A DNA stretch of 33,632 nucleotides from contig WHTU01000029.1 in assembly GCA_009377575.1 (NCBI GenBank), forward strand, positions 1 to 33,632, written 5' to 3'. The stretch is from Nitrososphaeraceae archaeon (lineage in GTDB: Archaea > Thermoproteota > Nitrososphaeria > Nitrososphaerales > Nitrososphaeraceae). Made by a program: the position numbers and the translations under genes. Below, one piece after another: positions 5,441 through 28,768 of this stretch (the first letter of the stretch is position 1; each line of letters starts with the position of its first letter). The notes beneath the pieces are model-generated. The model saw only the letters and a list, made by a program, of their open reading frames with translations, had not been told where the DNA came from and searched no databases.

Positions 5441-5467
5441 ATTATTCTATCTTTAGATAATACTCTG
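5441..5467. repeat. putative attL (27-nt direct repeat)
   Basis: Identical over 27 nt to 28742-28768 (starts attattctatctttagat). Flanking bases differ on both sides, so the repeat is a bounded core and not part of a longer duplication. Confidence 0.7.
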
Positions 5468-5701
5468 AGGTAGTGCTGTCTACTTATTGAGGGTATTCAA
5501 ACCTCATCCAAAGCAGTTTAAACAATTGACATGTTGAAAGCGCACCAAACGCATTAAATATTGTTCGATTAACAGTCCAGATAAGTTTCTCCTAATACAC
5601 ATTGTCTATCATATATGAAGACACAGCTGGCATATCCAGCTTTTGATTTCTGAATGGTTTTGGGATCTATGAGTATATGGCTAACGTTTGAGATGGAATT
5701 T

Positions 5702-5711
5702 GTTTATATAT
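5702..5711 (+). promoter_or_regulatory. TATA box for the gene at 5733
   Basis: gtttatatat is centred about 26 nt before the ATG at 5733, so that ATG rather than the TTG at 5721 is likely the leaderless start. Confidence 0.55.
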
Positions 5712-5732
5712 AGTGGATAATTGTTTGCGTTT

Positions 5733-6368
5733 ATGAACAGGGATCCTAACGTGGCGACGCTTCTTCAATGGGCATCAGAGTACCAGATCACCAATTCTTT
5801 GCCAACAGAATTGGAAAATGACTCACAAAAGCTGATTGAAATAGTAGACATGGTTGAGTCGTGTGTTGGTAAGGAATTTGAGAAAGGCAAAGCTAAATTC
5901 AAGCTGCAATATGGAAGAGAACCGACATCGCTGGAAGCGTCAAAGAATATAGTACCATTTGCATTATATGATCCAGTAAGAAAACAAGGATTTTTAGGAT
6001 GTATTAAGCAATGTATTCAAAATAAACTTCCTGGAATAGAGGAAAAATACCAACTGAATTTTGCGCTTAAGCTCTGGTCTGGTTGTCTTGCAACAGCGAA
6101 AACCATTGCTCTTGGGACTCAAACTGGCAAGAACACGGCACAGTTTAGAAGTGAAATGATTCCAAGAATAGATACGACCTCAACTAAGGACATGATTTAC
6201 AGAAAGGGAGAGGAGATTGCTTGTATTTGGAAGCCAGATCCAAAAGATATTAGTTTCGACGGCGTTCCAACTAATTCAAACGCTAGGAAGTATGAAAGCG
6301 AATGGTCTGAGACAAGGAACAAGATCAACCAAGCAATGCACGTAATGTGTAAAATCAGATGGAATTAG
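5733..6368 (+). CDS. hypothetical protein of the element's left end
   Basis: A 211-aa soluble protein, not recognised. Four Cys residues occur in the second half (FLGCIKQCIQ, WSGCLATAK, EEIACIWKPD, HVMCKIRWN), spaced without a clear zinc motif. Helix-rich, no signal peptide. The ATG at 5733 is chosen because the TATA box puts the transcript start there; a TTG at 5721 would add four residues. It is the first gene inside attL and is followed 47 nt later by the coiled-coil gene, so the two may be cotranscribed. Confidence 0.7.
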   Translation: MNRDPNVATLLQWASEYQITNSLPTELENDSQKLIEIVDMVESCVGKEFEKGKAKFKLQYGREPTSLEASKNIVPFALYDPVRKQGFLGCIKQCIQNKLPGIEEKYQLNFALKLWSGCLATAKTIALGTQTGKNTAQFRSEMIPRIDTTSTKDMIYRKGEEIACIWKPDPKDISFDGVPTNSNARKYESEWSETRNKINQAMHVMCKIRWN

Positions 6369-6415
6369 CTAGATTCACTTAGTTCATGCCTACCTACGTT
6401 TTTTAGCACGAATTA

Positions 6416-6727
6416 GTGAATACAACTTCATTGATTGATAGGCTAAAAGTGGAAGACGAAAAACTCAATGTTGAACTAGAAGAGTCACACGGAGATTGTG
6501 AAAAAATGAAGGCGGTATTTGAAAAGCGAATTGACCTCTACAAACAAACCCTGAAAGAAGAAAGTCTTACTGAGCTGGATAGACTTAGGCTAGAAAATAA
6601 GAAAGAATGGACCCTGAACCACCTCTTGAATCTAATAATAGAGAAAGAATTACGTGACAAAATCACAAGCCTAACAAAACGTGTATACAAATTAGAGAAG
6701 GCAGTCGAACTGGGCGAAGGAGCTTAA
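6416..6727 (+). CDS. small coiled-coil protein
   Basis: A 103-aa, highly charged, almost wholly helical protein with heptad-like leucines (LIDRLKVEDEKLN, LDRLRLENKKEW, LTKRVYKLEKAVEL). The start is GTG. A broken paralogue lies at 7599-7881; the MKAVFEKRI core and the LTELDR-LENKK-W segment are shared between the two, which confirms that this frame is coding. Function unknown, perhaps a structural or DNA-organising accessory protein of the element. Confidence 0.7.
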   Translation: MNTTSLIDRLKVEDEKLNVELEESHGDCEKMKAVFEKRIDLYKQTLKEESLTELDRLRLENKKEWTLNHLLNLIIEKELRDKITSLTKRVYKLEKAVELGEGA

Positions 6728-6823
6728 AACTTCTCATGCACTTCCCTTTAAAAAGTGTCGTCAAGTAATAATCTTTGACAATAATATGAATATGACAATG
6801 AGAAGTATTCAGGAAATAAGATA

Positions 6824-6843
6824 ATAGAGCCACGTGGCTCTAT
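6824..6843. terminator. 20-bp perfect palindrome
   Basis: ATAGAGCCACGTGGCTCTAT has no spacer at its centre (CACGTG). It lies about 100 nt after the coiled-coil gene. It could act as a transcript-end structure or a protein-binding site; no T-run follows. Confidence 0.4.
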
Positions 6844-7046
6844 GTGAAGTACTTTTTTGTGAAATCTTCATGTATGCAGACAGATATGAATGAAGCAGTA
6901 TTATGGTAGTTCTAGATATTCTTAACCTTTCTGCAACGATTTTATATCACTTAATCCCCTAATCATCTTCTGCTGATTCTTCTTTCTTACTCTTATTTTC
7001 TCCTTCATGTACTACAATGAAAATTACAACTGCGTACGTCACAATT

Positions 7047-7508
7047 TTATCCTGAATCTTCTTCACCAGATGACTCCTGACCTTCAGTTGACGACCTTAT
7101 GAATTCATTTTCTAAAACCAACTTAGAATAATCGTTTCCGCCTGAATCTTGCCATTGAAGAGTAAGGCTATATGTTGCTGCTTCGTTGGTTACAGTATCA
7201 CTAGTTATCAGTATAGTAAATGGTGATTTCATTCCTGGTTGTATCGTCTCTGGGTCTGCAAAACCTGAACTTGTTCCTACTATGTCTCCAAGAGAATCAT
7301 AGAATGATGTTGTCGCTCCTACAAACTCTGCAACTTCGCTGCCATTGTTGATAACTTCACCCACTATTTGATTAAAAAAAGATTCTTCAATATACCTCTG
7401 GCTTTCTAGTGATACATCTGGTTGTGCTATTACATTATTGATTTCAGGCGTTAATATGATCATTACTGCGACCCCAATTAAAATAGAAAACGCTCTTTCC
7501 ACATTCAT
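7047..7508 (-). CDS. secreted FxLYD-like domain protein
   Basis: A 153-aa exported protein from the ATG at 7508 (an upstream ATG at 7556 would add 16 residues ahead of the signal peptide and is less likely). The signal sequence is MNVERAFSILIGVAVMIILT, cleavage near VIAQ. The mature part (VGEVINNGSEVAEFVGATTS, FYDSLGDIVGTSSGF, IQPGMKSPFTI) has the order seen in FxLYD-type beta-sandwich domains: intrinsic 'new versus old value' strand, FYD-G-x-V turn and the PG-x-x-S/T-P-F strand. The tail is Glu/Ser/Gly-rich. Probable cell-surface protein; ligand unknown. Confidence 0.7.
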   Translation of the reverse strand: MNVERAFSILIGVAVMIILTPEINNVIAQPDVSLESQRYIEESFFNQIVGEVINNGSEVAEFVGATTSFYDSLGDIVGTSSGFADPETIQPGMKSPFTILITSDTVTNEAATYSLTLQWQDSGGNDYSKLVLENEFIRSSTEGQESSGEEDSG

Positions 7509-7598
7509 TGTGGAAATAGAAATGACTTTCCTATATAACCATGCGCCTGGGGTCATGAAAAATATAATTAACAGAGGTTAATCAAGCAGCAGCAGGGC

Positions 7599-7881
7599 AT
7601 GAAAACGCTAATGGATAGATTGCAAATGGAAGAGGATAAACTAGACCAAGAGCAAGAAGACGCATAGAGAGAATACAAAAAAAATGAAAGCAGTCTTCGA
7701 AAAACGAATCCAACTGTACAAGCGGTATCTAAAAGAAAATGGTCTTACAGAGCTAGATAGAATTATGTTGGAAAATAAGAAGCAATGGCAAATGCGTCAT
7801 TTACTAGGATTAATAGAGCATGAAGAGAGTATCAATAGGTTAAGTGATCTCACAGAGCGAAGTTACAGACTAGAAAAGTAG
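7599..7881 (+). pseudogene. broken paralogue of the coiled-coil protein
   Basis: The frame from the ATG at 7599 reads LMDRLQMEEDKLDQEQEDA and meets TAG at 7665. Five codons later a run of eight A (7677-7684) shifts the frame by one base into MKAVFEKRIQLYKRYLKEN, which matches the gene at 6416-6727 in the same alignment register. So the copy carries a nonsense codon and a +1 frameshift. The 65-aa second half (from 7684) could still be translated alone. Confidence 0.65.
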
Positions 7882-8073
7882 GCTGGTACATACTGTATGT
7901 TCTGTCTATACATTTGACCTATATTTTCTCCCAATGGACAAACATAAAAAGGGTAGTTGTAGAACTTCGGAGTTATCATTATTATTAGCCAACTATGAAT
8001 TCCTTAATGAGTCACAAGTGTTGACCTAATTTTACTACACAACAAAATTAATTTATCCGACATCGTTAAATTA

Positions 8074-8082
8074 CTAAATATT
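8074..8082 (+). promoter_or_regulatory. TATA-like element for the gene at 8101
   Basis: ctaaatatt lies about 23 nt upstream of the ACG at 8101, where a leaderless start codon would be expected. Confidence 0.35.
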
Positions 8083-8100
8083 AGCCAAAAGTGATTTACT

Positions 8101-8505
8101 ACGGAAAGAGATTCTTTTAGTCACCGACCCACTGCTGTTACAATAATAGCAATTCTGGTTATTATAACCGGAGTGATTGCTATCGCTGGCGGACTTGGTC
8201 TTTTGGGCATTGCGGCGCTCATTCCAGAATTAAGCATAGTATTTCTTTCGATAGGTGTTATTCTAATAGCAATAGGGATCGGATATCTGGCCGTCAGTTA
8301 TGGTTTGTTTAAAGGTAGGGGATGGGCCTGGTCAATAGCATTAATCTTATCTTACATAGGAATTGCGCTTGCTATTGTCTCAATTGTGACTGGAAATTTC
8401 TTGCCCATAATAAATCTGGCAATCAACATAGTAATTGTATACATTTTGTACAGGCCTCAAGTTAGGGCTTTTTTCGGAAAATCGGCTAGAGCAAAAATCA
8501 GTTAG
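8101..8505 (+). CDS. four-helix membrane protein; ancestral start now ACG
   Basis: The homologous frame begins well before the first usable start (GTG at 8173): codons from 8101 read ERDSFSHRPTAVTIIAILVI and supply the first membrane helix. The frame closes upstream at TGA 8092 without ATG, GTG or TTG; the codon at the expected leaderless start is ACG, one change from ATG. The full product would be 134 aa with four helices and the segment YGLFKGRGWAWSIALILSYI followed by a basic tail, a layout I recall for small archaeal integral membrane proteins of unknown role. From GTG 8173 only 110 aa and three helices remain. Confidence 0.6.
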   Translation, partial: TERDSFSHRPTAVTIIAILVIITGVIAIAGGLGLLGIAALIPELSIVFLSIGVILIAIGIGYLAVSYGLFKGRGWAWSIALILSYIGIALAIVSIVTGNFLPIINLAINIVIVYILYRPQVRAFFGKSARAKIS

Positions 8506-8705
8506 TATACTCTAAATATGTAACTGCGTCTGTGGAGAATTAATGCCACAGTTGTGCCAGTGTTACAGTCGTTGGCATTTGCTTGGGTTTGGGTGTTAGT
8601 AGCATACTTGGCATTTACATAGTTTTTAGTGTCACCAGATATCAGTGGTATGCCTGACATTAAGACTAGGAATATAATGAAAATCGATACGTACGTGACC
8701 TTCAT
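8502..8705 (-). CDS. small secreted protein, C-terminus probably frameshifted
   Basis: A 67-aa protein with a clear signal peptide (MKVTYVSIFIIFLVLMSGIP). The mature part has NANDCNTGT. After this the annotated frame gives an unlikely TVALILHRRSYIFRVY, whereas a one-base shift gives NCGINSPQTQLHI and a stop at 8512-8514. NCxINSPQTQ after NDCNTGT is a pattern I recall in small secreted thaumarchaeal proteins, so a single lost A near 8550 is likely. Function unknown. Confidence 0.45.
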   Translation of the reverse strand: MKVTYVSIFIIFLVLMSGIPLISGDTKNYVNAKYATNTQTQANANDCNTGTTVALILHRRSYIFRVY

Positions 8706-8831
8706 TTACATTTGTCACGAATAGTATGTGACATTTCTAGGATTGAAAGGCTTCGAATTCTACATAAGCATATATCTTAGAGAATTTATGATTTCTCACC
8801 TATCTTATGCTTCTTTAATTGTTCGTTCTTA

Positions 8832-8975: not shown

Positions 8976-9055
8976 TTAATCACCACAGTAAAGCTAATGC
9001 AGATAGAACCTCTTTAAGAAGCAGATGTAAATACGAAGAGAACTTTAACGGTCAT

Positions 9056-10069: not shown

Positions 10070-10926
10070 TTACTTTCCTTTTGTTGCATTGAGGATGAAA
10101 CCGGCAATTTCATTTGGGTATGATACATACGATGAGTGACTAGCGTTGAGTGACAGAGTGGTAGCATTCATTTGTTCTGCGAAGGTATGCTGGACGTCTG
10201 GAGGAATCATTTTATCAGATTCAGAAATTTGATACCATGTTGGTAATTCTTTCCATGCTGGAGGACCAGAATTTGCAGCAAAGTTCGATTGATGGAAGGG
10301 TTTTTGTACAGTTGCCATAATGTCGGCCTCAGCAGGATCAACATCTTGAGCAAAATTTTCTCTAAAGATTTCAGGGTTTAAGTATATAAAGCCGCCACTG
10401 TCAGGCATTGAAGAGTTCTTTCGGGAAGTTTGCTGGGTTGACGAAAGTCGACAGTGATTGTCCCTCATCTGGGGCAAAAGCAGCAATATAGACAAGCCCT
10501 GTAACGTTGGGATTATTATAGCCAGCATTCGTGATTACTGCTCCACCGTATGAATGACCTACAAGGATTGTTGGTCCGCCAATGTGTTCAACAGCACGTT
10601 TAACTGTTTCAACGTCGTCTGACAGAGAGGTGAGAGGTAGTTGTACAGCGACTACTCTATGTCCTGCGTCCTTTAGAATAGGAATTTGTTTGCTCCATCC
10701 AGATCCATCAGCCCACCCTCCATGAACTAGTATGATATTTGTGGCATTAGTGGTATTTGACATACTTTGTGTTCCCTGAGGTTGCATTAATGTCTTCCTC
10801 AGGGGTAGCGAACCCAAAATATGTAGTAGTTGATGCAAGCCCAGTGGTTACTGCAATACTTAAGCACAGTAAAATCAAAACAAAAGGTTTCGATCTTATT
10901 CTATACGTTTCACCGTTACAATACAT
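10070..10926 (-). pseudogene. secreted alpha/beta hydrolase, broken by two frameshifts
   Basis: An esterase-like hydrolase in three frames. From ATG 10926: signal peptide (SKPFVLILLCLSIAVTTGLA). A shift between about 10765 and 10800 leads into IILVHGGWADGSGW (oxyanion loop) and ILVGHSYGGAVI (nucleophile Ser in G-H-S-Y-G). A second shift, an extra base near 10403, links FPKELFNA to DSGGFIYLNPE, and the last frame carries SLNASHSSYVSYPNEIAGF with the catalytic His. All catalytic parts survive, so loss is recent or the shifts are sequence errors. The piece 10401-10763 (from MSNTTNATN) could still be made but lacks the His. Confidence 0.7.
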
Positions 10927-13532: not shown

Positions 13533-13683
13533 GATATTCTATGGCTATTGCGTAATATGCATATAACTGCCAACTTTATTTCCATTACGTTAATAGATCA
13601 TATAGAGCATATTGTCAAATGTTAAATATACTGCTTCTGTCATGAATCTTACCAACCCATATCTTAACCTTGACTATGGTCTT

Positions 13684-13740
13684 TAGTAGGTAGGTAAGTA
13701 TTCCAACCTACCTACTATCTTTTCGTTCATACACGAAAAG
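13684..13740. ncRNA. two tandem perfect hairpins, copy A
   Basis: Hairpin 1: tagtaggtaggt / acctacctacta, 12 bp with a 10-nt loop (13684-13717). Hairpin 2: cttttcgt / acgaaaag, 8 bp with a 6-nt loop (13719-13740). One base separates them. Both are identical in copy B. They could be a structured RNA, a double terminator or a DNA-level recombination or replication site; type is uncertain. Confidence 0.45.
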
Positions 13741-13878
13741 AAGTCAATCGGTACGCCCGTTTCCATTGCAATACTCACTATATTAGCTCTATCCCTTCCC
13801 TTCCCTCTTTTTCATCGGTGTAATATCCATATTGCTTCAACTAAAGATATTAATAAACTAGATTAGTACAGCTTGATT

Positions 13879-13977
13879 ATGATGCAATGTCCTAGATGTG
13901 GCGCAAGATGGGAAAGCCCTGATGGAGCGGACCAAAAGCAGTTTGTGATATGCAAGGAATGTGCTAGCAGAAAATAG
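13879..13977 (+). CDS. 32-aa zinc-ribbon microprotein, copy A
   Basis: Starts ATGATG and reads MMQCPRCGARWESPDG, then QFVICKECASRK. Two CxxC knuckles 18 residues apart form a complete zinc ribbon with almost nothing else. The frame is kept in copy B (29643-29744) with one replacement (Gly to Val), against wide divergence of the surrounding module, which supports coding. Too short for standard gene finders. Possible role: a nucleic-acid or protein binding zinc knuckle; unproven. Confidence 0.6.
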   Translation: MMQCPRCGARWESPDGADQKQFVICKECASRK

Positions 13978-14224
13978 CCTTAGTTCAACCCCAAGCCATG
14001 TCTAGAACAGGATTAGTGAAGCCTCATTGTTTGACAATTATTCTGAAGTAGATCATGATATTTATTTTATTACTCTTGATGTTTTCATACAAATGGGACT
14101 ATAACCGCATTCTACCCAGTGTAGAACCTTGTAGCAAGCAACCAGCCTAGGAAAATCTATTTTTATCAATAGCCCATTTTTTTTGTCTAGTTTTTGAGAG
14201 CTGCTGTTAGACAGCTCAAAAAGC

Positions 14225-15063
14225 TCAGGGCAGTGAAGATTTGTCTTCTCTTTTAACCTCTCTCAATACAACGTCGATGTACCTTCTTAATTCTTTTTCA
14301 TCCAATTCGACTTCTCTTTCTTTATATACATCTAGATTATCTTGGCTTTCAATAATTTCTGTTACTGTCTTTTGTATTTCCTTCTCCATTTCTGCGTGTC
14401 CTATTAAGTCTAACAAGTTTGATTTTATTGCATGTTTACGTATAGATTTACGCAAGCTATTATTTGTCGAAACAAGTGAGGCTGAGTTGTAGATTCCTAG
14501 CAACATTCAGTATCCTGCTATATTCAAAACAGTTAAGGTTGCAAGCCCAAATGGAGGATAGGGATTAACAATCTGGATTGCCGCCTGATTTGCAGCAAAA
14601 ATCAGGAATATGCCCAACCAGAAATAATCATGTATGTCTTGATGTTTTTTTCATAACCTACGACTTTGGATATGTTCCAGAATGCTATTCCAAAAAGCAG
14701 ACCTCCAATAGGTTTACTTAGCGATAGGAATGCCGACATTATAATAGAAACAGTTATCGGATCAATTTGCACATAGGAGATTAGTAACTGGCCTAAGAGA
14801 AACTGGTAAGAGTATGTAATTGAAAAATAAACAAGAGCTATAGATAGTATAATCCAAAACAGTATGGGATTGATTAGTTTCTCTCTATAGGATATCATCA
14901 AGATCACTATTGTAATCCAAATACCAAAAAAAGAAATAAAGGAAGAAACTATGTACATTGTATCTAATAATGCGTGGCTGCCTCCAGATATATCACCAGA
15001 AGATCCGACATATTCTCCAACACGATCTGGCCTATCTCCAATCTTTGCACTTGCACTTCTTTT
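14225..15063 (-). pseudogene. integral membrane protein broken by frameshifts and a stop
   Basis: One gene in several pieces. Codons from about 15063 (KIGDRPDRVGEYVGSSGDIS, GGSHALLDTM) lead without break into MYIVSSFISFFGIWITIVIL (14958) and further helices to KTYMIISGW. There a one-base shift near 14610 passes into LGIFLIFAANQAAIQIVNPY and LTVLNIAGY, then an in-frame TGA (14507-14509), then MLLGIYNSASLVSTNNSLRK and a charged C-terminal tail ending at 14225. The whole resembles thaumarchaeal proteins I recall with an extracellular DISGGSHA region, about six helices and a cytosolic helical tail. Its N-terminus is not recoverable. Confidence 0.65.
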
Positions 15064-16739: not shown

Positions 16740-17501
16740 TTAGAATCCAATTATAGCTTTTGTAGATTTACATTGAAAAGAAGGATATTGATGATCTGAA
16801 TTATCAGGCAAAGATGAAACAGGTGAACAATGAGACATTCCATTTTCATCGTAGAGATTGTCGTTGTCTGTGATGCCTTCCTGAAATTCAGGTGGGCATT
16901 CATTGAGCATAGTCTTTTGCAGTTCCACCTTTGTGGTCTCCAATTCCTTGATAGACAATTGGAGCTCATCTTCTCTCTTATTTAATGCTACATTTCGGTC
17001 GCAGAACTGTTGGTAGATTTGAACTGAATTGCTTATGTCAGCTTTCAATGAATTTAATTCAGCTTTGTGTCTATCATATTCTAATCTAACCCTGGGAAGA
17101 TATCCGTTTGCTATTTTAAGTAGCTCTGCTACTTCACCCTCACCCATTCCCGAATTTTGAACTAGTTTGACAAAATTCACATATGGCCAAGGATTATCCT
17201 TGACCTTAAGGTAAACCTTAGTGAATTCGGTACATCCCAAAAGCATGAAATATTCTTGATGATAACGTATTGCTTCTTCAGATTTGAGGCCTAGTGTAAT
17301 AGCCACCTGTAATGGGGTCTTTTGTTGAGAGTAGAGTTCAAAGACTCTAGACGATATCGAAGTATTCTGGTCCAATCCTGCTTTATTCAAAATTGCCTTG
17401 ATCGTGTTTGGAGACACCCCGGCCTCTTTTGTAATCTCTCTGTAGGTTTTCCCTTTTTCAGCTAACGCCAAGACAAGAGCTACTTTTTGCTTTCTATCCA
17501 T
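16740..17501 (-). CDS. helix-turn-helix protein with coiled coil
   Basis: 253 aa. Residues 1-42 form an HTH of the resolvase/homeodomain-like kind (VALVLALAEKGKTYREITKE, then AGVSPNTIKAILNKAG). Residues 50-80 resemble a second HTH-like unit (SQQKTPLQVAITLGLKSEEA). Residues 130-200 are coiled coil (LEYDRHKAELNSLKADI, KREDELQLSIKELETTKVEL). The layout matches a DNA-binding family I recall as expanded in soil thaumarchaea and their elements. The ATG at 17501 is preceded by aggagc, and a perfect 22-bp palindrome lies 42 nt further upstream, consistent with autoregulation. Confidence 0.75.
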   Translation of the reverse strand: MDRKQKVALVLALAEKGKTYREITKEAGVSPNTIKAILNKAGLDQNTSISSRVFELYSQQKTPLQVAITLGLKSEEAIRYHQEYFMLLGCTEFTKVYLKVKDNPWPYVNFVKLVQNSGMGEGEVAELLKIANGYLPRVRLEYDRHKAELNSLKADISNSVQIYQQFCDRNVALNKREDELQLSIKELETTKVELQKTMLNECPPEFQEGITDNDNLYDENGMSHCSPVSSLPDNSDHQYPSFQCKSTKAIIGF

Positions 17502-17542
17502 TGCTCCTGTCTTATTTGTCTCTAGAACGATTTAGCTTTTAC

Positions 17543-17564
17543 TATCATATGTTATCATATGATA
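17543..17564. promoter_or_regulatory. 22-bp palindromic operator candidate
   Basis: TATCATATG (17543-17551), 4-nt spacer, CATATGATA (17556-17564), perfect. It sits between the HTH gene and the pseudogene at 17606, where the HTH promoter should be. Confidence 0.5.
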
Positions 17565-17605
17565 TTGACATGCTATTTCTTGTAATTTTCTGCATCAGAT
17601 TGGTA

Positions 17606-17986
17606 TCAGAATGAGCTCAGCAACCTCTCACCTATTGCTATTGCATCCTATGTTGTTCTGACTTGCTGAGCTTGTTGCAATAGATCTGTTGCTTGTGCAG
17701 TTGTTAACAATCATCTGGTTGCAAGAGTATTAACTGAGATACTAAATCTATCCATTATTGCACACGAAATAAAGTCATTTGATGGGTTACTATCACTAAC
17801 AAATATCAATGCTACTCTTAGCTGAGTTGTGAGGGAGGTCTCTACACGAAGGTTTACATTATCAAGATCCCCTACCGTTTGAATTAGATTCTGAAATAAC
17901 TCTAGAACTCGTCATCATGATCGTAATACCTTATCTAATCTGTTGCTCGTTAGAAAAGAACTTTTGAGTAAGATTGATTGAACCAT
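17606..17986 (-). pseudogene. unrecognised gene with four in-frame stops
   Basis: From ATG 17986 a 126-codon frame reads to a final TGA at 17606-17608 with internal TGA TGA (codons 24-25), TGA (92) and TAG (113), but no frame change. Between stops it is protein-like: MVQSILLKSSFLTSNRLDKV, LFQNLIQTVGDLDNVNLRVE, LRVALIFVSDSNPSNDFISC, TTAQATDLLQQAQQVRTT, DAIAIGERLLSSF. Decay by point mutation only, unlike the frameshifted neighbours. Function unknown. Confidence 0.45.
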
Positions 17987-18021: not shown

Positions 18022-18639
18022 ATGCGTTGTTCTGTATCCAAGCAGATGAGAAGAGCCAATAGAAACAATCAGGCTTATACTGGAAAAACTTGGTTATTAG
18101 CTATTGCAGGCAGTGCAGTCCTTTTGCTGTCGTCGGTGTTAAGCAATCCGATTATACAATCAGCATATGGCCAACCTTCACTCCCCCCACAAGATCAGGA
18201 AAGACTTCTAGAAGACGCTGGAGCAGGGATTGGTCATCTTGAATTCGATAAAAGACCCAAGTTAGCAGAGTTAAGATTCGAGGGGTCCATAATTGCCGAG
18301 AGAAAAGCACCTCCTGCTATCACAGGTGACAACGTGTATGTGGCATGGTGGACTAACAAGACAGGTAACGATGAAGTGTTATTCAGGGCGTCTACAGATG
18401 GTGGTACTACGTTTGGAGATAATATTAATTTGAGTAATACAACTGATGCAGATTCCACAAGAGCGGAGATAGACTCGGATGCAGATAGTGTGGTAGTTAC
18501 ATGGTGGGAAACAAACCAGACAGATGATATACCGGTTATGAGAGTAAGTAATGATAATGGAGCCACATTTGGGCCTGTCCTGACACTGGCTACTAACGGA
18601 ACTTTAGGAGAAGCATCGGACGGAGAAGGAGATGAATAG
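18022..18639 (+). CDS. secreted Asp-box (BNR) repeat protein
   Basis: 205 aa; ATG 18022, or ATG 18046 (MRRANRNN). A long signal peptide (LLAIAGSAVLLLSSVLSNPI) ends near AYGQ. The mature part has two Asp-box turns S-x-D-x-G-x-T-F: RASTDGGTTFGDNINLS and RVSNDNGATFGPVLTLA, each with the preceding VYVAWW / VVVTWW strand typical of sialidase-like beta-propellers. Only about two blades are present, far short of the six or seven of an enzyme, so it is more likely a short surface adhesin or a truncated propeller. A hairpin terminator follows. Confidence 0.75.
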   Translation: MRCSVSKQMRRANRNNQAYTGKTWLLAIAGSAVLLLSSVLSNPIIQSAYGQPSLPPQDQERLLEDAGAGIGHLEFDKRPKLAELRFEGSIIAERKAPPAITGDNVYVAWWTNKTGNDEVLFRASTDGGTTFGDNINLSNTTDADSTRAEIDSDADSVVVTWWETNQTDDIPVMRVSNDNGATFGPVLTLATNGTLGEASDGEGDE

Positions 18640-19467: not shown

Positions 19468-20064
19468 CGTGTTACGCCGTCCCTGTGCTTCTTCAGAAAT
19501 GATAGTTATGACAGTTTAGGAAGTTGGAGATGCTATGGTTGTATAGATAGAGGATTAACAAAAATAGACTGTGATGAAATCAAAGAAGGAAATGGTAGCT
19601 TAGATCATGCATCATTACAAGAAGAAAATAGAAGGAATTGTTATGATGATGGATTTGAGGACGGTAAAAATAGTAATTCTTTCAATAAAGATAGAGACAG
19701 TGCATGTTCTGAATATGGTGATCCATATGAAGATGGATTCAGTGCAGGGTGTCAGTCAGTAGAAGGAAATACAAATGATAGCTGTGAATTAACAATTGAA
19801 AGACATGAAATATACTGTCCTGATAATCCAGATGATCCAGCTTGCACAGACTTCTTACATGATGTCAGTAATAAAAAACCACTTCCTCCTAAGAACGGTT
19901 CAGTTTGTGACCAGGAGCCTTATCAACCTGGCTGCCCTCAAATTGTTAATCCTGAAAGATATTGTCTCGTTACTGATGATCCAGTCTTTTGTAAGACCAT
20001 AGGTGATATCTGCGATCCAAATGGTTTTGTAAAGCCTAAAGATGCATATTGCAGATCTGATTAA
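19468..20064 (+). pseudogene. start-less copy of the Cys-rich secreted family
   Basis: A 198-codon open frame with no start and no signal peptide. It opens after TAG 19465. From about 19540 it parallels the gene at 21928: CIDRGLTKIDCDEIKEGNGS, SLQEENRRNCYDDGFEDGKN, YEDGFSAGCQSVEGNTN. It then goes on into a different Cys-rich C-terminus (PDNPDDPACTDFLHDV, YQPGCPQIVNPERYCLVTDD, GDICDPNGFVKPKDAYC). The 5' end with the signal peptide has been lost. Fourteen Cys in the open part indicate an exported, disulphide-rich protein originally. Confidence 0.65.
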
Positions 20065-20208: not shown

Positions 20209-21360
20209 ATGTATATATCAATAATCGCAATAGCGGCTTTAATACTAACATTAGTAGGAATGCCCTCCTCCTCTTCGTTAGCATTTGCATCAATAATAGA
20301 CTATGAAGACGAATCAGAAAAAGAGGAAGAGTGTAAAGAAGAAAGCGTTTATGACTATTTATGCAATGGTGGTGGTGGTGGTGGTGGTGTAAATGGATTA
20401 CCATTCTGTGATGAGTATAATGCAACAGAGAGAGTTAGATTACTTCCTAATCTTACAGAAGAAGGCTGTTATGACAGAACAACCGATCCTGTATCCTTTT
20501 GCGAAAAATTTGATGACTTAACTTCTACTTATGAGGACTGTAGATTGGTTCCAGGAAGTGAGGAGTACACCGAATATCTAGAAACAGGTGGACCGGATGA
20601 AAGCTGCCTCTTTGATGTGTATCAGATAAAATGCTTACCTCACCCTCTTGCTGATGATTGCCCTGAAAACTTTTGGACAAATGAAGACGGTTATTGCTTC
20701 CCTGTAAATGAAAATGACAATTGGGTATGTCCTGAAGGCTATCATGATGTAGATGATGATGAGACAGGTCAATGTTATCCAAACAGTGAAAAGTGTCCTA
20801 GTTACTCAATTCTAGTACCAGATGAGGATGAGGAAGACAAGGGTGATCGCTGTGCTAGTATAGATAGCATATGCAGCTATGAGAATCATACTGCTGATAT
20901 CTGCTTGACAAATCCACCAGTGAAAGATTTTGTAGGTGATGAGCTGAATTGTTCTGATTTGCTAAATCAAGAAGCAGTAAACTTCAAGGTACCAGATGAT
21001 GATGAAGAGAGACAGAACTTTGATTCAGACAATGATGGAATAGGTTGTGAAGCCAAAGAAGACATAGGCTTCAGTAGTAATGAGAATGCAATGTTACATC
21101 AAAAATTTGGTAAGCTGGGAGATGAAGTAATCCAAAATGTAACTAATATAGACATAGCTTCATTGAAAGCAAATGTAATGTCAAAGAATCATACTGATGA
21201 CTTTAACGTGAATACCATAGCATTTGGAATAGATAATGACGGTAGAGGCATCTTGTGTTTGGTAGATGAAACTAGGGAAAAAGCCGAATGCCAGGATTTT
21301 CTAGTGCCGGATGCTAGTATATCAGATGATGTAACGTCTTTAATGAAGTTCCCCAAGTAG
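20209..21360 (+). CDS. secreted acidic Cys-rich protein with Excalibur-like domain
   Basis: 383 aa. Signal peptide MYISIIAIAALILTLVGMPS, cleavage near AFA-SI. Residues 50-65 hold a Gly run. Residues 70-235 are Cys-rich and acidic with repeated units of the type GYCFPVNEND / GQCYPNSEKCPS. Residues about 248-285 (ELNCSDLLNQEAVNFK, DSDNDGIGCEAKED) match the Excalibur calcium-binding pattern C-x-D-x(n)-D-x-D-x-D-G-I-x-C-E. The C-terminal 100 residues are not recognised. Probably a Ca2+-binding surface protein stabilised by disulphides. Neighbours are decayed relatives, so the locus has grown by duplication. Confidence 0.75.
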   Translation: MYISIIAIAALILTLVGMPSSSSLAFASIIDYEDESEKEEECKEESVYDYLCNGGGGGGGVNGLPFCDEYNATERVRLLPNLTEEGCYDRTTDPVSFCEKFDDLTSTYEDCRLVPGSEEYTEYLETGGPDESCLFDVYQIKCLPHPLADDCPENFWTNEDGYCFPVNENDNWVCPEGYHDVDDDETGQCYPNSEKCPSYSILVPDEDEEDKGDRCASIDSICSYENHTADICLTNPPVKDFVGDELNCSDLLNQEAVNFKVPDDDEERQNFDSDNDGIGCEAKEDIGFSSNENAMLHQKFGKLGDEVIQNVTNIDIASLKANVMSKNHTDDFNVNTIAFGIDNDGRGILCLVDETREKAECQDFLVPDASISDDVTSLMKFPK

Positions 21361-21705: not shown

Positions 21706-21821
21706 CGACTTATGTCTTTCAGTATTATATCTAGGAAGTTTTTTCTGTTATCTATAATAAGAGATTTAATATCTATCATTCCTATTATGATATCCAGGGA
21801 TGGAGAATTCTGATTGGACGC

Positions 21822-21923
21822 TTCGGTCAATGCTATCCAGATGATGAAGAATGTCCTGGTGGTACAGTATGGATGGGAAAAACTGCTGAGAGTCATACTG
21901 CATGCTTTTCAGGAGAGGATTAG
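21822..21923 (+). pseudogene. C-terminal remnant of a Cys-rich protein
   Basis: Open stretch FGQCYPDDEECPGGTVW, MGKTAESHTACFSGED, stop at 21921. GQCYP-x-x-E-x-CP is shared with residues of the gene at 20209. It ends five bases before the next ATG. Confidence 0.4.
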
Positions 21924-21927
21924 AGAA

Positions 21928-22722
21928 ATGAAAAGCAAACTAATTTTTCTTACAGCAATTATTCCAATCTTAATGCTGACAATAATAGTACCGAATGTGT
22001 ACGCAAGCGGTCCTAGGGGAGACTCTCCTGACGGTTCTACAAGAGAAGGTGCAAATTGTTGGGTAGAAGGATATGATGCAGGCTTTGCTCAGAAATATGA
22101 TAAAGATAGAGCTGATCAATGTAAAAATGCGGAGGATGATGAATATAATGCATCTTGGAAATACGGATGTATTGACTCAGGATTAACAAAAATTGACTGT
22201 GACCAAATAAAAGATAATCCAGAGCATATAGAACATGAATCATTGCAAGAAGAAAATAGAAGGAACTGTTATGATGATGGATATGAGGACGGACGTAATA
22301 ACCCATTTGATCGTGAAAGAAATAACGGATGTAATGACTATCAAGACATGTATTACAAAGGGTTCATAGCTGGTTGTGAGTCGGCTGGAAATACTAAAGA
22401 AATGTGTTCCTCTAGTGGTCATAATAATAACAGCGGAGATAATAGTAATGAACCTGATCGTCTTAAAGTAACAGCCACGCTGAATGTTCCATCTTCTTGG
22501 TGTGGAAGAGAATTTCAGGTTACCTTGAGAACAGAAGGTGTGTCTTACACAGAATACAAGGATGGCTGTACTGGAGACGTAGAATTTGCACCAGCCCCAA
22601 TTGATATGAATGAAGAGTTCACAGTTTGCGCACAAGCCTCAAATGGTGCGGTCAGTGGCTGCCAATCTGGTGTAAATGGCCCTGAATCAGAATCAGAGCG
22701 GATTACAATCGACGTAGGCTAA
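21928..22722 (+). CDS. secreted protein with Cys/Gly-Tyr-Asp repeats
   Basis: 264 aa from ATG 21928 (a TTG at 21814 would add 38 residues encoded by a remnant of another gene). Signal peptide KLIFLTAIIPILMLTIIVPN, cleavage near VYA-SG. The mature part repeats a unit of the type W/Y-x-x-G-Y-x-D/A-G (WVEGYDAGFAQKYD, NCYDDGYEDGRNNPFDRE, MYYKGFIAGCESAGNTKE) with spaced Cys. A C-terminal beta-rich part (TATLNVPSSWCGREFQVTLR) carries more Cys. Family unnamed to me; exported and disulphide-bonded. Fragments of paralogues lie at 19468, 21595 and 22800, and a short relative at 13020. Confidence 0.75.
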   Translation: MKSKLIFLTAIIPILMLTIIVPNVYASGPRGDSPDGSTREGANCWVEGYDAGFAQKYDKDRADQCKNAEDDEYNASWKYGCIDSGLTKIDCDQIKDNPEHIEHESLQEENRRNCYDDGYEDGRNNPFDRERNNGCNDYQDMYYKGFIAGCESAGNTKEMCSSSGHNNNSGDNSNEPDRLKVTATLNVPSSWCGREFQVTLRTEGVSYTEYKDGCTGDVEFAPAPIDMNEEFTVCAQASNGAVSGCQSGVNGPESESERITIDVG

Positions 22723-22799
22723 ATGTTATTGGCTTTATTTGATAGATCCTGTTTTATCCCTTCACTGAGGCCAGAATGAAATTGTGGTGATGATCACAA

Positions 22800-23717: not shown

Positions 23718-25535
23718 TTAAGACCCCTCCTGTTCAAAATTTATCCCAGCATTTCTTGGATTTTCCCAATACATTCCCTGAGGCTCTAGATTATGTTTTT
23801 CCAAATCTGTAGGCCCAGGATAACCTGTCAAACCCTTATGGCATCTAACAACATGTTCTTCATAATGATCCTTATCGCTAAACCCTCCAATAATACAATA
23901 ATAGCACTTAGGTGGATACTCTACATGACTAGGGTGAAGGGGTGAAAGCGGTGAAGGCATTATTTGACTTTGCCTATCATATTTAACTATACTTTTAATA
24001 TCATTATTTTGTGAATTGTAGCTAATGCTTTCACTGCTTTCACTGCCTTCACCTTTCACCTTTTCCTTATCATAGTTTAGAACATCCTCATACATCATGC
24101 CAATCTTATCCAGTTTCTCTTTATCAAAAATCAAGACATTGCCTGACTTCTTATGCTTCCTTTCCGCACCAAGGCCTTCTAAGATCTTTGTTATCGTACT
24201 TCGATAGATGGTATCATAATCATGTGATTGGAATTCATTAGGTTTATCTGGGTTGTATAAACCGACCACATTTTTCATAATTTCTTCCCAAATGTCTGCG
24301 ACTGATATTGTAGTCCCGTGTGTAATAATCATGTTCTTGATTATGTCATACAACACTGGTTCGATAGAAGTATTGTTTCTCCTAATGTTCTTTTTCGCTA
24401 AGAATGATTTAATTGCCTTATCGATCCTGTTATATGATCTTGTATCATGGAAAAATTGCAATAACGGCTTGCAAAGTTCTTTGTCTCTTCCATTAAGCCC
24501 GACATCTAAATCAAAAATTGGATCATCAAAATGTACTAATCTGAATATTAGAAGTAACTTTCTAAGGTTTCGGAGACTCTCATGCAACTTTTCCAATTTC
24601 CCATTCCTTCTAGATGCTGGATGCAACACCTCCTTGATATCATATCTAGGGCAACCTTTAATCGCCCTAATCATAAATGATCTATCAATAACACCCTTTG
24701 CAAAACTGGGTCTCATTGGATCTTCAGCTATCCTCATCTTGAAGCAGTAGCTAAAGAAAAATTCCTGTTTTTCAGTATTCTTATTGATTTTGGAAACCTT
24801 TCCCAGTATTGTGTATCCTTCCTTAAGAATAGACATCATGTCCTTATCGGTGTGAATTCTGTCTGCCTCATCTGCTATGATAATACATTGTCCAGGTTCT
24901 ATCTTACCCAAAATTCTATAGAGACTAGGTGCAGAAGGGTCAGTCATTCTAACAGCTCTATATGCGATTCCCTCAAAGACGTGACCTATGGTACTCTTAC
25001 CAATACCATTACCTGTCCCTGATATGTCATAGTAATGTGTTGTGGGGAATAAGTCTTGGAAGTATGTCCAGAATATATCAGCTGAGATTAGAATCCGAAT
25101 TTCTTCGTCCTGGTCAATATATAGAGATACAGTTTCGAATATTTTTTGGAATAGAATTTCCTTGTTTACTCCCTCCAGTACTATCTGTTGGAATTTCTTG
25201 AGTTCTTCGTATGTACTAAATTCTATTGGTTCATAAGGATATTCTTCGATGCTTGGCGGCCTCAAAATCCTATCTTGTTCTTCAATATTTGGAACTGCTT
25301 GAATCTGACCGTCTTGATATTTTATGAAAACCGGAGCGCCGTTAAGTAAAATTGCTTCGTGAAGTGTACCTCTAAACCTAGAAGAGTACTTGAATGTCAT
25401 ATAGTCGTATTTTTGATTTTGATCTTTCTTGGTGGCCTTACCTTTACCGTTTCCTAACCTCTTTTCAGTATCTTCTAAGTCTTTATCAAATGCTTCCTCT
25501 AATGCTTTGTACGTGTCTTCCTCTATTGAAGTCAA
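23718..25535 (-). CDS. element P-loop ATPase (helicase-like) with C-terminal zinc finger
   Basis: 605 aa. Walker A GTGNGIGKST at about residues 193-202, Walker B CIIIADEADR at about 238-247; the residues between (AYRAVRMTDPSAPSLYRILG) and after (SYCFKMRIAEDPMRPSFAKG, then VIDRSFMIRAIKG) follow the order of replicative or DUF3631/D5-like helicase domains, with an arginine-finger candidate in VIDRSF. Residues 400-480 are winged-helix-like. The C-terminus has a C2H2-type finger (CYYC, then HVVRCH). Likely the replication or DNA-processing ATPase of the element. The start TTG overlaps the stop of the 57-aa gene upstream (TTGA), indicating coupled translation. Confidence 0.75.
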   Translation of the reverse strand: MTSIEEDTYKALEEAFDKDLEDTEKRLGNGKGKATKKDQNQKYDYMTFKYSSRFRGTLHEAILLNGAPVFIKYQDGQIQAVPNIEEQDRILRPPSIEEYPYEPIEFSTYEELKKFQQIVLEGVNKEILFQKIFETVSLYIDQDEEIRILISADIFWTYFQDLFPTTHYYDISGTGNGIGKSTIGHVFEGIAYRAVRMTDPSAPSLYRILGKIEPGQCIIIADEADRIHTDKDMMSILKEGYTILGKVSKINKNTEKQEFFFSYCFKMRIAEDPMRPSFAKGVIDRSFMIRAIKGCPRYDIKEVLHPASRRNGKLEKLHESLRNLRKLLLIFRLVHFDDPIFDLDVGLNGRDKELCKPLLQFFHDTRSYNRIDKAIKSFLAKKNIRRNNTSIEPVLYDIIKNMIITHGTTISVADIWEEIMKNVVGLYNPDKPNEFQSHDYDTIYRSTITKILEGLGAERKHKKSGNVLIFDKEKLDKIGMMYEDVLNYDKEKVKGEGSESSESISYNSQNNDIKSIVKYDRQSQIMPSPLSPLHPSHVEYPPKCYYCIIGGFSDKDHYEEHVVRCHKGLTGYPGPTDLEKHNLEPQGMYWENPRNAGINFEQEGS

Positions 25536-25705
25536 TTCTTTTTGGTTACCTCTATTTCCGGCACTAGTTTATCTAATATTGAAATCAGTTGTTCTAAAAC
25601 TTGGTTAAAGAATTCCTGATCAACCATTGAGAATTTCAATTGAGTTCCTTCACTCTTTGCAAAATGTTTAATTTGATCACTGCAGAATAAATCATAAGAG
25701 GTCAT
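25532..25705 (-). CDS. 57-aa microprotein translationally coupled to the ATPase
   Basis: ATG 25705 to TGA 25532, below usual length cut-offs. Sequence MTSYDLFCSDQIKHFAKSEG, FSMVDQEFFNQVLEQLISIL, then DKLVPEIEVTKKN: amphipathic helices, no membrane segment. Its TGA overlaps the ATPase's TTG start by two bases, which explains the non-ATG start of the ATPase. The arrangement suggests a loader or regulator of the ATPase, by position only. Confidence 0.6.
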   Translation of the reverse strand: MTSYDLFCSDQIKHFAKSEGTQLKFSMVDQEFFNQVLEQLISILDKLVPEIEVTKKN

Positions 25706-25736
25706 AATGTGACTCCGTAATTGTGACCAAACTAAC

Positions 25737-25790
25737 GGATGATGCTGGCTTTCCCGCTGGCATTGGAACCAACATCATCCTTTTTTTTTT
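25737..25790 (+). terminator. strong hairpin with ten-T tail
   Basis: ggatgatgctgg (25737-25748) pairs with ccaacatcatcc (25769-25780), 11 of 12 bp, 20-nt loop, then T10 (25781-25790). It lies between the ATPase operon and the Cys/His gene. As an intrinsic-type terminator it works on the plus strand, where no gene is seen upstream, so an unannotated plus-strand or antisense transcript is possible. Confidence 0.55.
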
Positions 25791-25834
25791 CGTGACATGT
25801 GTATTTCTTGCTATTGAATTCCATTATGTCATTG

Positions 25835-26116
25835 CTATCCATCTTTTGTCAACTCCTTGATTTCGGCAGCCTGATAGGCTGGAGTATCAAAGTGGCATTG
25901 GTGATGACAAATGATTCGCAAGATATCTCCCCTGATACTGTCTATGTATAACCCGGTACATTGGTCGCATGCTGCCAGACAATAATTTATGTCACGTGTA
26001 ATTGTATTTCTATATCCTGAAGAACTTTTTACATTACTTTCAGCATCAGAATTTAATTCTAATTCTTTAATGCCTCCAGTTCCATTTACTGCATGCGTAT
26101 CAGTTTGAGATTTCAT
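25835..26116 (-). CDS. Cys/His-rich hypothetical protein
   Basis: 93 aa. The first 40 residues are polar and likely disordered. The second half has YCLAACDQCTGLYIDSIRGD and RIICHHQCHFDTPAY, giving Cys/His pairs C-x3-C-x2-C and C-H-H-x-C-H, a probable zinc site. A strong Shine-Dalgarno GGAGGTGA (26127-26134) lies inside the end of the RHH gene just upstream, so the two are one transcript. Function unknown, likely nucleic-acid or protein binding. Confidence 0.65.
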   Translation of the reverse strand: MKSQTDTHAVNGTGGIKELELNSDAESNVKSSSGYRNTITRDINYCLAACDQCTGLYIDSIRGDILRIICHHQCHFDTPAYQAAEIKELTKDG

Positions 26117-26126
26117 TGCTTTCTAG

Positions 26127-26258
26127 TCACCTCCTCTCCTGAGAACCCAGTAGTCTTTGTATAACTGAATCGAAGCTGTCTGACAGGGTTCCTAATTTCT
26201 GAAGAGCTGTGTACGTATCAATTGAGATTCTAATCGTTCTTGTGTTATTCGAACACAT
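26127..26258 (-). CDS. 43-aa ribbon-helix-helix regulator
   Basis: ATG 26258 to TGA 26127, too short for usual gene calling. TRTIRISIDTYTALQKLGTL followed by SDSFDSVIQRLLG is the RHH pattern: a short strand T-x-x-I-R-I-S, then helices with L-x-x-L-G and S-F-D-x-V-I-x-x-L-L, as in CopG/VapB-like antitoxins and plasmid repressors. It is divergent from the gene at 26296, with an inverted repeat between them, and leads the operon into the Cys/His protein. Likely an autoregulator of the element; an antitoxin role is less likely as no toxin is seen beside it. Confidence 0.7.
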   Translation of the reverse strand: MCSNNTRTIRISIDTYTALQKLGTLSDSFDSVIQRLLGSQERR

Positions 26259-26265
26259 GATACAC

Positions 26266-26303
26266 TTTATATACACATGGTAACATCATATAGTAGTGTT
26301 ACC
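26266..26303. promoter_or_regulatory. divergent promoter with operator-like inverted repeat
   Basis: GGTAACA (26279-26285) and TGTTACC (26297-26303) form a perfect inverted repeat with 11-nt spacer across the start of the rightward gene. tttatatac (26266-26274) is spaced 26 nt from GTG 26296. A TATA-like sequence for the leftward RHH gene falls in the spacer. TGTGTT/AACACA repeats at 26240-26257. RHH proteins bind such sites. Confidence 0.55.
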
Positions 26304-27003
26304 TAAAAATGAAGGTGAGAAATCCAGGAATATAACTGAGGGTTACGGTCCTAATCGTTCAATTGTTAAATTCATGATTGCTTTGTTGCAATACAAAGAA
26401 GATGTAAAATTAGTGAATGAATTGGAAGAGCATAAAAGATATCTTGACAAGGAAAAAGTTGACTTACAACACAAGGAGAAAATTAAATTGGAAGAGCATA
26501 AAAGATATCTTGACAAGGAAAAAGTTGGCCTACTGAACAACTGCATCTTTCCTTCGATGGCAAATATTGTGTTCTTTTTTAGATATATCTCCAGATATCC
26601 GGAGCTCAAAGAGGTCTTCGATAATGATATTAAAGATCTGTTAGGAGTACGACGGGAAAACCCTAATAAAGATTATTATGGGTATATTTTCTCTGATTTA
26701 CTACGGTCGATTATAATGCCTGAATTGGGCTATTACAATGAAGAAAAATTGCATGACAAAGATTTTCGGTTGCGATTGACCCAGATTCTGCAGGAGACAG
26801 TCATAGCTAAAACTGGTATATATCTCACCGATATGTTTACGAATGAAAGTATACAAGTTGTTCAAAATGATTTTAACAGGGCGGAGGCTTGGGTAGAAGC
26901 GGTAGCAAATAGTGCAGGTCAGAATGCGGTAGACAACAAACCTCCCAACAGACCTATAAGATTTGGCATTACTCAGATAAGGGAAGATGATGAATTGATA
27001 TAA
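26296..27003 (+). CDS. hypothetical protein with duplicated charged helix
   Basis: 235 aa; the GTG start at 26296 is supported by the TATA box 26 nt upstream (leaderless). Residues 40-78 are a charged helix containing LEEHKRYLDKEKV twice, 22 residues apart. The rest is a helical domain (NCIFPSMANIVFFFRYISRY, YPELKEVFDNDIKDLLG, RLRLTQILQETVIAKTGIYL) that is not recognised. No signal peptide. It is transcribed away from the RHH gene and toward the integrase, so is likely under RHH control. Unknown function. Confidence 0.65.
   Translation: MLPKNEGEKSRNITEGYGPNRSIVKFMIALLQYKEDVKLVNELEEHKRYLDKEKVDLQHKEKIKLEEHKRYLDKEKVGLLNNCIFPSMANIVFFFRYISRYPELKEVFDNDIKDLLGVRRENPNKDYYGYIFSDLLRSIIMPELGYYNEEKLHDKDFRLRLTQILQETVIAKTGIYLTDMFTNESIQVVQNDFNRAEAWVEAVANSAGQNAVDNKPPNRPIRFGITQIREDDELI
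26420..26527 (+). repeat. 42-nt exact internal duplication
   Basis: 26420-26461 and 26486-26527 are identical, offset 66 nt (22 codons), within the gene at 26296. Identity at synonymous positions implies a recent event. Confidence 0.8.
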
Positions 27004-27277
27004 GAGCGATGTGTAGACGTAAACATGGCTAACCTATAATAGAAATCGATCCGAAATTCTCACAAAATTGGAAGGTTATCTCTTGTTGAATTTCTGTTGG
27101 TTATTAGCCAAGGTTAAAAATAGTCCATTTTATCATTGAAAAATTATCAACCTTTTCTGATGGTGGCTTAAGTCGTTTACCTGTTTAATTAGCGATCACA
27201 TAAGGTATACCCTTAATAATTGAGCCGGTCCCATTGGATGTAATTTCCAGTCTGACCTCTTGTAGTAATATCTCTTT

Positions 27278-28698
27278 TTATGAGGCCTGTTTTAATATTC
27301 CAGAAGAAAACATTGATTGAGCCACATTCATAAGCTCTTGTTGATCTTTTATTTTAGAAAGACCTGTTATGAGTTTCTCCATCATAGTTTGCATCACATC
27401 AACTCTTTCTTCCATAACTGCCAGTTTATCCTCTTTCTTCTTTTGTTCTTCAATCGTTTCACTATACGCATCGTATGTTAAAACCATCCTACATCTAGCA
27501 CAAAACTTTGAGTCTGGCCTGTTGGGCTCATCACAATTAGGACACTGTTTAGGCTTTAATGCATCCGTCTGTTGTTTCTCTTTTGGTATTATCCCGTACT
27601 CTTCAAGTATAGATTCAGAACTTTCATTACCAAAGTAATGCAAATATTTTAGATGCATTTGAGAATTCCTAGACCATCCGCTGTGTTGCCTCAATATATG
27701 TTCCTTCAGGTATTTACTTTTCTCAGTCAATGCACTATGTCTTCTAATGTATGGGTTCCAAGGTTTGTTTAGCAATTCTTTGATGTGTTGCTTATCATCT
27801 CCTGGAATTTTGGTTTCTAATAGGTTGGGAAAGAGTTTTGTCTTGTAATTTTTATAAATCTGCCGTAAGCCATTTGGACCTAACTTACTTAGTCGACCTC
27901 TATCGCTTAGATTGGGAATTAGGTAAGCGTTAGAATTGCCCCTCTGTGGATGTGCATCTAGCCAATCTTTTATGTATGGTATGCTGCTAATCAACGGGAT
28001 ATGTCTAGAGCCAGTTTTCCCATTGACCAGACATTCAGCATACTGTTTTGCATCAGCTGTACTCTTGAACACTCATCCTTGATTTGTAAATTCAAAATTT
28101 CGTGTGGCCTACAGCTAAGGTCCCTACTGATCGTATGATAACAACGATCCCTTTTGCTAGGACAATATTTTAGAAAAAGCAAGTCATCTTCAGTGCTCCA
28201 AAGGTCAGAAGGTTTGTAAATTGAAGTTTCCTTTCTTTTATATTTTGGAATATTTTCAACAACATTTGGCTTTGGTCTCTTTTTTGGTTCGATTTCTGAG
28301 TAGTACAACCATTTAAAAAACTTGATTATTATTATCCTATGGAGTGAGTGCGTCCCTATCCATTTATGCATTGGATCTTGAGTTTCAGCCTTTTTAAGGG
28401 AATCTAAGTAAGATAACACGTCCCCTCTAGCAACTTTTCCAATGTCTTCCCTCTTGCAGTATTTTGCTAAATCTACGATAGCATAAATATTCATCCTTAT
28501 GTAATTTATTGAAGCATTGTTCTCTCTTTTCAGATCATTAATGACATAATCGATTATGTAAGTCGAATTTTGTTTAGATAATCCCAAGAGTATTTTATGG
28601 AAGTACGGATTTAATCCTTCGACTGCTGACTGAAGCTTAGTTTCGAATTTGACGCATAATGATGTCTGATTCTTAATCTCCGGGTTCGCTACCGTCAC
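27278..28698 (-). pseudogene. tyrosine recombinase/integrase with zinc ribbon, frameshifted
   Basis: About 472 aa in two frames. Part one (28698-28072, GTG start, TATA-like gtttatcta about 26 nt upstream) has the SAM-like core-binding domain (YLDSLKKAET, IIIIKFFKWLYYSEIEPKKR) and the first catalytic Arg in DLSCRPHEILNLQIKD. A one-base deletion at about 28072 joins it to VFKSTADAKQ, with Lys in VNGKTGSRHIPL, the second Arg box YIRRHSALTEKS (His of H-x-x-R replaced), HSGWSRNSQMHLKY and the Tyr in KYLHYFGNESSES. Then a zinc ribbon (CPNCDEPN, FCARC) and a coiled coil. Catalysis of integration at the adjacent att is expected of the intact enzyme. Pseudogene unless recoded or a sequence error. Confidence 0.8.
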
Positions 28699-28741
28699 AT
28701 TGAAATGGCAAGGGTAAAAGATAGATAAACATATCTAGCAC

Positions 28742-28768
28742 ATTATTCTATCTTTAGATAATACTCTG
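28742..28768. repeat. putative attR (27-nt direct repeat)
   Basis: Identical to 5441-5467. It covers the last codons (EYYLKIE) and stop of the gene at 28743-28955, so insertion here leaves that gene whole. 44 nt from the integrase start. Confidence 0.7.

Follow-up and report, generated by a model that had tools for sequence, protein, structure and literature searches.

A contig assigned to the archaeal family Nitrososphaeraceae (GenBank assembly GCA_009377575.1, contig WHTU01000029.1) carries the same 27-nucleotide (nt) sequence twice, 23.3 kb apart, with an integrase gene just inside the right-hand copy; the question that this locus raises is whether the DNA between the copies is a site-specifically inserted element and, if so, whether its target was a protein-coding gene or a tRNA gene. 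We analyzed positions 1 to 33,632 of the contig (33,632 nt, hereafter the window) together with the source assembly (3.89 Mb in 380 contigs) and related genomes, whose contigs are given below as genome:contig. It is very likely that the 23.3 kb are a cryptic integrated element, inserted by a tyrosine recombinase at a 27-nt core in the 3' end of a gene for an exported protein of 70 amino acids (aa). The first-pass annotation, made from the letters alone, had read the region as a site-specific integration of 23.3 kb, and this is borne out by the uniqueness of the repeat, an empty site in related genomes, an intact target, and the integrase family.

The two copies of the repeat (ATTATTCTATCTTTAGATAATACTCTG; Table 1) agree at 27 of 27 positions, and the repeat is maximal, the neighboring bases being T and A at the left copy and C and C at the right, just as described earlier for identical copies whose flanks diverge at once. 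In a random window of the same composition, ~2e-7 exact 27-bp direct repeats would be expected by chance. Dispersal of the repeat through the genome, named beforehand as a sign against integration, was not seen: the 3.89-Mb assembly holds exactly two copies at up to 3 mismatches, both in the window, and no copy of a reversed control pattern. An automatic search for attachment (att) sites scored the window pair at 52.6 bits, compared with at most 29.5 bits for any chance pair (22 contigs); no pair above chance was found at the 21 other integrase contigs, mostly because those contigs are short.

An empty site with one 27-nt copy in related genomes had been set beforehand as the test of integration, and it was found in three congeners (G001:C38, G004:C121, and G002:C46), where the 3' end of the target gene, a single core, and the left flank follow one another without a gap. 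On G001:C38 (locus L009), positions 5146-5599 match window positions 29199-28742 and positions 5573-6608 match window positions 5467-4431; the stretch common to both matches is exactly the 27-nt core. The gene order of the left flank (CBS, UspA, and others) is kept in G001 and G004. The opposite outcome, relatives carrying the 23 kb here with no second repeat, did not occur; these relatives are without the 23 kb. Because the outer flanks are contiguous around one core in these relatives, the 23.3 kb are an insertion at one core, with duplication of that core. To the right of attR, synteny with the congeners stops after ~430 nt (window position ~29200), and the window continues with a cluster of aquaporin, arsenate reductase-like, and arsenite methyltransferase-like genes not seen in the congeners.

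The right core lies in frame with an open reading frame (ORF) on the minus strand and reads E-Y-Y-L-K-I-E-stop; the protein is unchanged by the insertion, since its final seven codons and its stop all come from the core. The earlier remark that the right copy forms the 3' end of an intact gene for a small exported protein stands, whereas the 135-aa ORF then assigned to it (28743-29150) extends too far in the 5' direction: conservation among congeners begins at MALIKIIY, which gives 70 codons and not 135. A hydrophobic segment lies at the N terminus of the protein, and its C-terminal part, which contains two cysteines, is nearly invariant. Its length is identical in four genomes, and substitutions between G000 and G001 fall on codon positions 1, 2, and 3 in the proportion 17/3/14, with a similar pattern in the others; judged by this constant length and the avoidance of codon position 2, the target is a real protein-coding gene. 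Since, in addition, no tRNA gene was found in the window, the earlier statement that integration was into a protein-coding gene and not a tRNA gene is upheld. The window likewise contains no Rfam family. A protein search matched the target in 4 of 61 genomes at an E value of ≤0.001, including three of the four congeners and no other genus of the family, and no further convincing match appeared in 70 genomes at an E value of ≤1.

The integrase is encoded by two overlapping ORFs in different frames, which align end to end with single ORFs of 470 to 520 aa in its relatives, the N-terminal part over residues 1-208 and the C-terminal part from residue 1. The N-terminal ORF starts at 28698, 43 to 44 nt inside the right core; the first-pass annotation had placed the integrase start correctly (44 nt inside) and had missed the split. 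At the junction, the last aligned codon is separated from the next by two bases in place of the three of the expected codon; one base is thus missing, and this 1-nt frameshift makes the integrase nonfunctional as assembled. Programmed frameshifting was considered as well and rejected, as there is no slippery heptamer at the junction and the relatives have one open frame. Among 18 relatives, the Arg (in RPHE), Lys (GKT), YxxRH, Trp, and Tyr are invariant, and the C terminus carries a CxxC...CxxC zinc ribbon; the catalytic set of tyrosine recombinases (R, K, (H/Y)xxR, H/W, and Y) is thus present, with the window's residues split over the two frames. Pfam Phage_integrase was matched in 16 of 18 family members, and the family profile matches the archaeal XerC-like structure 4a8e. 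The family is abundant, with 10 matches in the element's own genome and 21 in G001, and is present in 35 of 61 genomes.

These features would be explained if a circular element and the chromosome had recombined at identical 27-nt cores under the action of the integrase. Recombination would duplicate the core, so that the integrase-side copy continues to serve as the end of the host gene and the other copy abuts the gene's former downstream sequence. A target at a gene end would keep the host gene working, so that the insertion would no longer be selected against; integration into tRNA genes follows this logic, which here was presumably transferred to a protein gene. To judge from gene content, the excised element may replicate with an AAA+/SF3-like helicase; excision and transfer may be supposed on the same grounds.

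Table 1. Attachment sites, target gene, and genes of the 23.3-kb element, by position in the window
Feature	Position	Strand	Remarks
Host sequence left of attL	5410..5440		In the empty site, follows the stop codon of the target gene
attL core	5441..5467		Left repeat copy; in three congeners, the empty site goes on with the sequence found to its left
Element-side arm beside attL	5468..5485		GTAGACAGCACTACCT on the minus strand; common to the att-like sites of G000:C313 and G001:C145
215-aa protein	5721..6368	+	First gene from the left end; without family match
Alpha/beta hydrolase in two frames	10070..10838	-	ORFs 10401-10838 and 10070-10528
Large terminase C-terminal fragment, phage type	11050..11319	-	74-aa piece; 40% identical to residues 406-477 of the 486-aa TH526 terminase
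Membrane protein remnant, two frames	14225..14958	-	From a 456-aa multi-pass membrane protein
Two overlapping ORFs, 121 and 250 aa	15531..16572	+	Function not assigned
Helix-turn-helix protein	16740..17501	-	65-68% identity to proteins from other elements in the genus
205-aa exported protein ORF	18022..18639	+	
383-aa exported protein	20209..21360	+	Weak Excalibur calcium-binding match
302-aa exported protein	21814..22722	+	Partial second copy at 19534-19664
AAA+/SF3-type replicative helicase (putative), 605 aa	23718..25535	-	Walker A GNGIGKST, Walker B ADEAD; C-terminal C2H2-like finger
235-aa protein	26296..27003	+	Internal 66-nt repeat
Integrase, C-terminal part, another frame	27278..28072	-	GKT Lys, YIRRH, Trp, Tyr, zinc ribbon
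Integrase, N-terminal part	27991..28698	-	Residues 1-208 align with intact relatives; catalytic Arg, RPHE
attR core	28742..28768		Right repeat copy; encodes the end of the target protein (7 codons and stop)
Target gene, 70-aa small exported protein, intact	28743..28955	-	Single copy; genus-restricted

The 605-aa protein has no sequence-family match in Pfam, PHROG, or PDB and was placed by fold comparison only. Its AlphaFold model has a mean predicted local distance difference test (pLDDT) score of 67, with core regions above 85, and Foldseek matches it to the MCM, BrxL, NrS-1, pox E5/D5, and SV40 large-T helicases; across the family, the Walker motifs are conserved and one Arg is invariant. 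With its Walker A and B motifs and a predicted AAA+ fold like that of MCM, D5, and NrS-1, the protein is, on its modeled structure, of the AAA+/SF3 type. On other contigs (L157, L158, and L162), relatives directly precede PriX-type primase genes, which makes a putative role in replication the best reading. A copy 77% identical to it lies elsewhere in the same genome, and genes for the integrase, the helicase, and the helix-turn-helix protein recur together on G003:C271. Locus L155 (JAATVS010000412.1), which carries a related integrase-helicase-helix-turn-helix module, has the C-terminal part of a TM1802-family CRISPR protein at the contig end (6860-7459).

Just upstream of the helix-turn-helix gene, a noncoding motif of 50 to 100 nt (window positions 17531-17628) recurs widely in the genus, with at least 8 occurrences in G001, one of them beside an att-like site on G001:C38 (L009:13427-13525). 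The tandem copies of the exported-protein gene (19534-19664 and 22162-22292) are 81-92% identical in pieces. A sequence of ~440 nt within the element (13560-13980) has an inverted copy, 91-98% identical, in the right flank (29635-30267), where it is interrupted by ~210 nt; there is no other full copy in the genome, and one partial copy lies at C348.

Several observations weigh against the reading preferred here. The integrase as assembled is not one reading frame, so that the element is at present only putatively mobile; no circular form and no third (attP) copy of the core was seen in the 3.89-Mb assembly; the element does not differ from its flanks in GC content or ORF density (GC, 0.374/0.373/0.373), so composition fails to mark it out from the host; and the whole-chain TM-scores of the helicase reach only 0.2-0.4, a third of the model being disordered. 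Given the assembled frameshift and the broken cargo genes, the element would be either decaying and fixed, or movable only by another integrase of the same family in the genome, or else the frameshift would be a consensus error in the assembly.

The second of these options, that the element is nonautonomous and is moved in trans by the intact integrase of a coresident element, strikes us as possible if somewhat unlikely. Nine further matches to the integrase family lie in its own genome, several of them intact; the att-like sites of G000:C313 (10100-10124) and G001:C145 (14567-14591) have both the core and the element-side arm; and the two cores of the window are still identical despite several broken genes. 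Recent movement is nevertheless without direct evidence, the C313 integrase shares only ~54% identity, and mobilization in trans would be unnecessary if the assembly had a single-base error.

It is more doubtful that the element is a defective provirus, that is, the remnant of a tailed archaeal virus whose structural genes were lost. Such an origin would account for the 74-aa C-terminal piece of a large terminase, and the TH526 and RBC_AOA1 elements with a helicase relative also carry a full-length terminase (that of TH526, 486 aa, matches the PHROG terminase family at 1.6e-22, and the helicase relative is on the same contig). On the other side, no capsid, portal, tail, or protease match was obtained from the 20 ORFs searched against Pfam or the 10 searched against PHROGs, neither the integrase nor the helicase family has a relative in 2.9 million viral contigs, and a single terminase scrap can arrive by recombination. 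On the preferred reading, too, the cryptic integrated element would have come from, or exchanged genes with, a virus-like lineage, of which the terminase scrap remains.

We regard it as highly improbable that the locus is an assembly artifact in which unrelated contig pieces were misjoined at a short common sequence: although the assembly is in 380 contigs and the integrase frameshift is of the kind that assembly errors make, three other genomes have the outer flanks side by side, separated by exactly one core, and the integrase has the expected place and orientation, a combination that a random misjoin would not give. An SSV-type ("suicidal") integrase has its att site within the gene and is split to both ends on integration, and despite the two pieces seen here this explanation can practically be dismissed, because the att core is outside the integrase gene, 44 nt upstream of it, and the pieces, rather than being at opposite ends, lie side by side at the same end, overlapping and one missing base apart.

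With integration into a protein gene as the preferred reading, the target choice of the integrase family as a whole becomes of interest. Six loci have a tRNA-Ser gene at the integrase start or immediately ahead of it, and the integrase ORF overlaps the tRNA in 4 of the 6; at four loci of this clade (L138, L140, L134, and L144), the overlapping N terminus of the integrase is translated tRNA sequence (..GSNPTPRAYLG..). One divergent family member adjoins tRNA-Met. The tRNA-Ser users group together in a maximum-likelihood tree (100/98), and the window integrase falls outside their group on a poorly resolved branch of its own. Its nearest relative by tree path, on G019:C77 (61% identical in the C-terminal part; L203), starts 38 nt downstream of the end of an ORF (region 3994-4480) that we take to be DUF488-like from its motif pattern. 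The similarity of this gene to four longer homologues ends at the same base (..GCTATTATGT), its C-terminal part being lost, so the G019:C77 element interrupts a protein gene; this suggests another protein-gene insertion, one that breaks its target at a conserved codon. Together, the two cases support, and do not prove, a branch of the family that uses protein genes.

The att-like sites of G000:C313 and G001:C145 share core and element-side arm (GTAGACA..ACT.CCT) with attL of the window. A further att-like site, on G001:C38 (13418-13442), and the G000:C313 site have a common but different outer flank that contains a hairpin, and a protein search revealed no paralogues of the target gene that would explain the sites on C313, C145, and C38. 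We tentatively propose, as a possibility short of an even prospect, that in this family of zinc-ribbon recombinases one clade is tied to tRNA-Ser while the window's branch uses the ends or interiors of protein genes and shares a core-plus-arm signature (GTAGACAGCACTACCT and CAGAGTATTATCTAAAG); given that common signature, related elements could compete for, or cross-mobilize each other at, one protein-gene target.

For uncultured soil thaumarchaea, the locus is a cleanly proven case of a protein-coding gene as the target of site-specific integration, with the boundaries exact and both the target and the empty site identified. Genetic tools are almost lacking for these archaea, and the 27-nt core and the integrase family are candidates from which such tools could be built; users of tRNA-Ser and of protein genes within one integrase family make target switching testable.

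Among known kinds of element, the locus has little in common with several. Of the complete large terminase, portal, and major capsid protein of a tailed-virus provirus, only the 74-aa terminase piece is present; the VirB4/VirD4-type ATPases of integrative-conjugative elements had no match in the ORFs tested against Pfam, and apart from the 605-aa helicase no ORF exceeds 400 aa; and of the marks of a casposon, Cas1 had no match among the ORFs tested and no inverted repeat was found at the two element ends. The element agrees with the description of a thaumarchaeal cryptic integrated element (CIE) in which virus-like ancestry or exchange has left a trace: none of the ORFs tested matched a capsid, portal, conjugation, or Cas1 gene, direct-repeat att sites and an empty site are present, and a tyrosine recombinase, albeit frameshifted, lies at one end. 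CIEs carry a tyrosine-recombinase integrase, flanking direct repeats, and diverse replication proteins over 2.6 to 98 kb and lack virion and conjugation genes, and 14 of 68 thaumarchaeal insertions with defined sites are in the 3' regions of protein genes (Krupovic et al. 2019; PMC6563490). The window element resembles them in its recombinase, direct repeats, protein-gene 3' target, and lack of virion and conjugation genes; it differs in that its target is a small exported protein, which is absent from the targets named by function in that survey, in that its core is 27 nt whereas most there are <26 bp, and in its helicase family with no Pfam match and its terminase relic. NitEve-E2 of Nitrososphaera evergladensis (PMC6563490) is also in the 3' region of a small protein gene whose frame is kept open, with an empty site in a relative, but there a 13-bp att and an element-supplied stop replace the gene end, whereas here the core gives unchanged last codons and stop.

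SSV-type integrases are likewise archaeal tyrosine recombinases that integrate site-specifically, with att inside the integrase gene and not outside it as in the window. The tRNA-Ser elements of Nitrososphaeraceae (G005, G023, G026, and G028) have an integrase of the same family that adjoins the 3' end of its target in the same direction; their target, however, is a tRNA gene overlapped by the integrase ORF, and their clade excludes the window integrase. The G019:C77 element has a related integrase similarly placed past the end of a protein ORF, but its DUF488-like target is cut whereas that of the window is intact. Protein-gene targets are thus already documented in Thaumarchaeota (PMC6563490), and the window element is of a known kind; the new detail is the contrast within one integrase family, between a tRNA-Ser clade and a window branch that lies outside it and whose closest relative cuts a DUF488-like gene.

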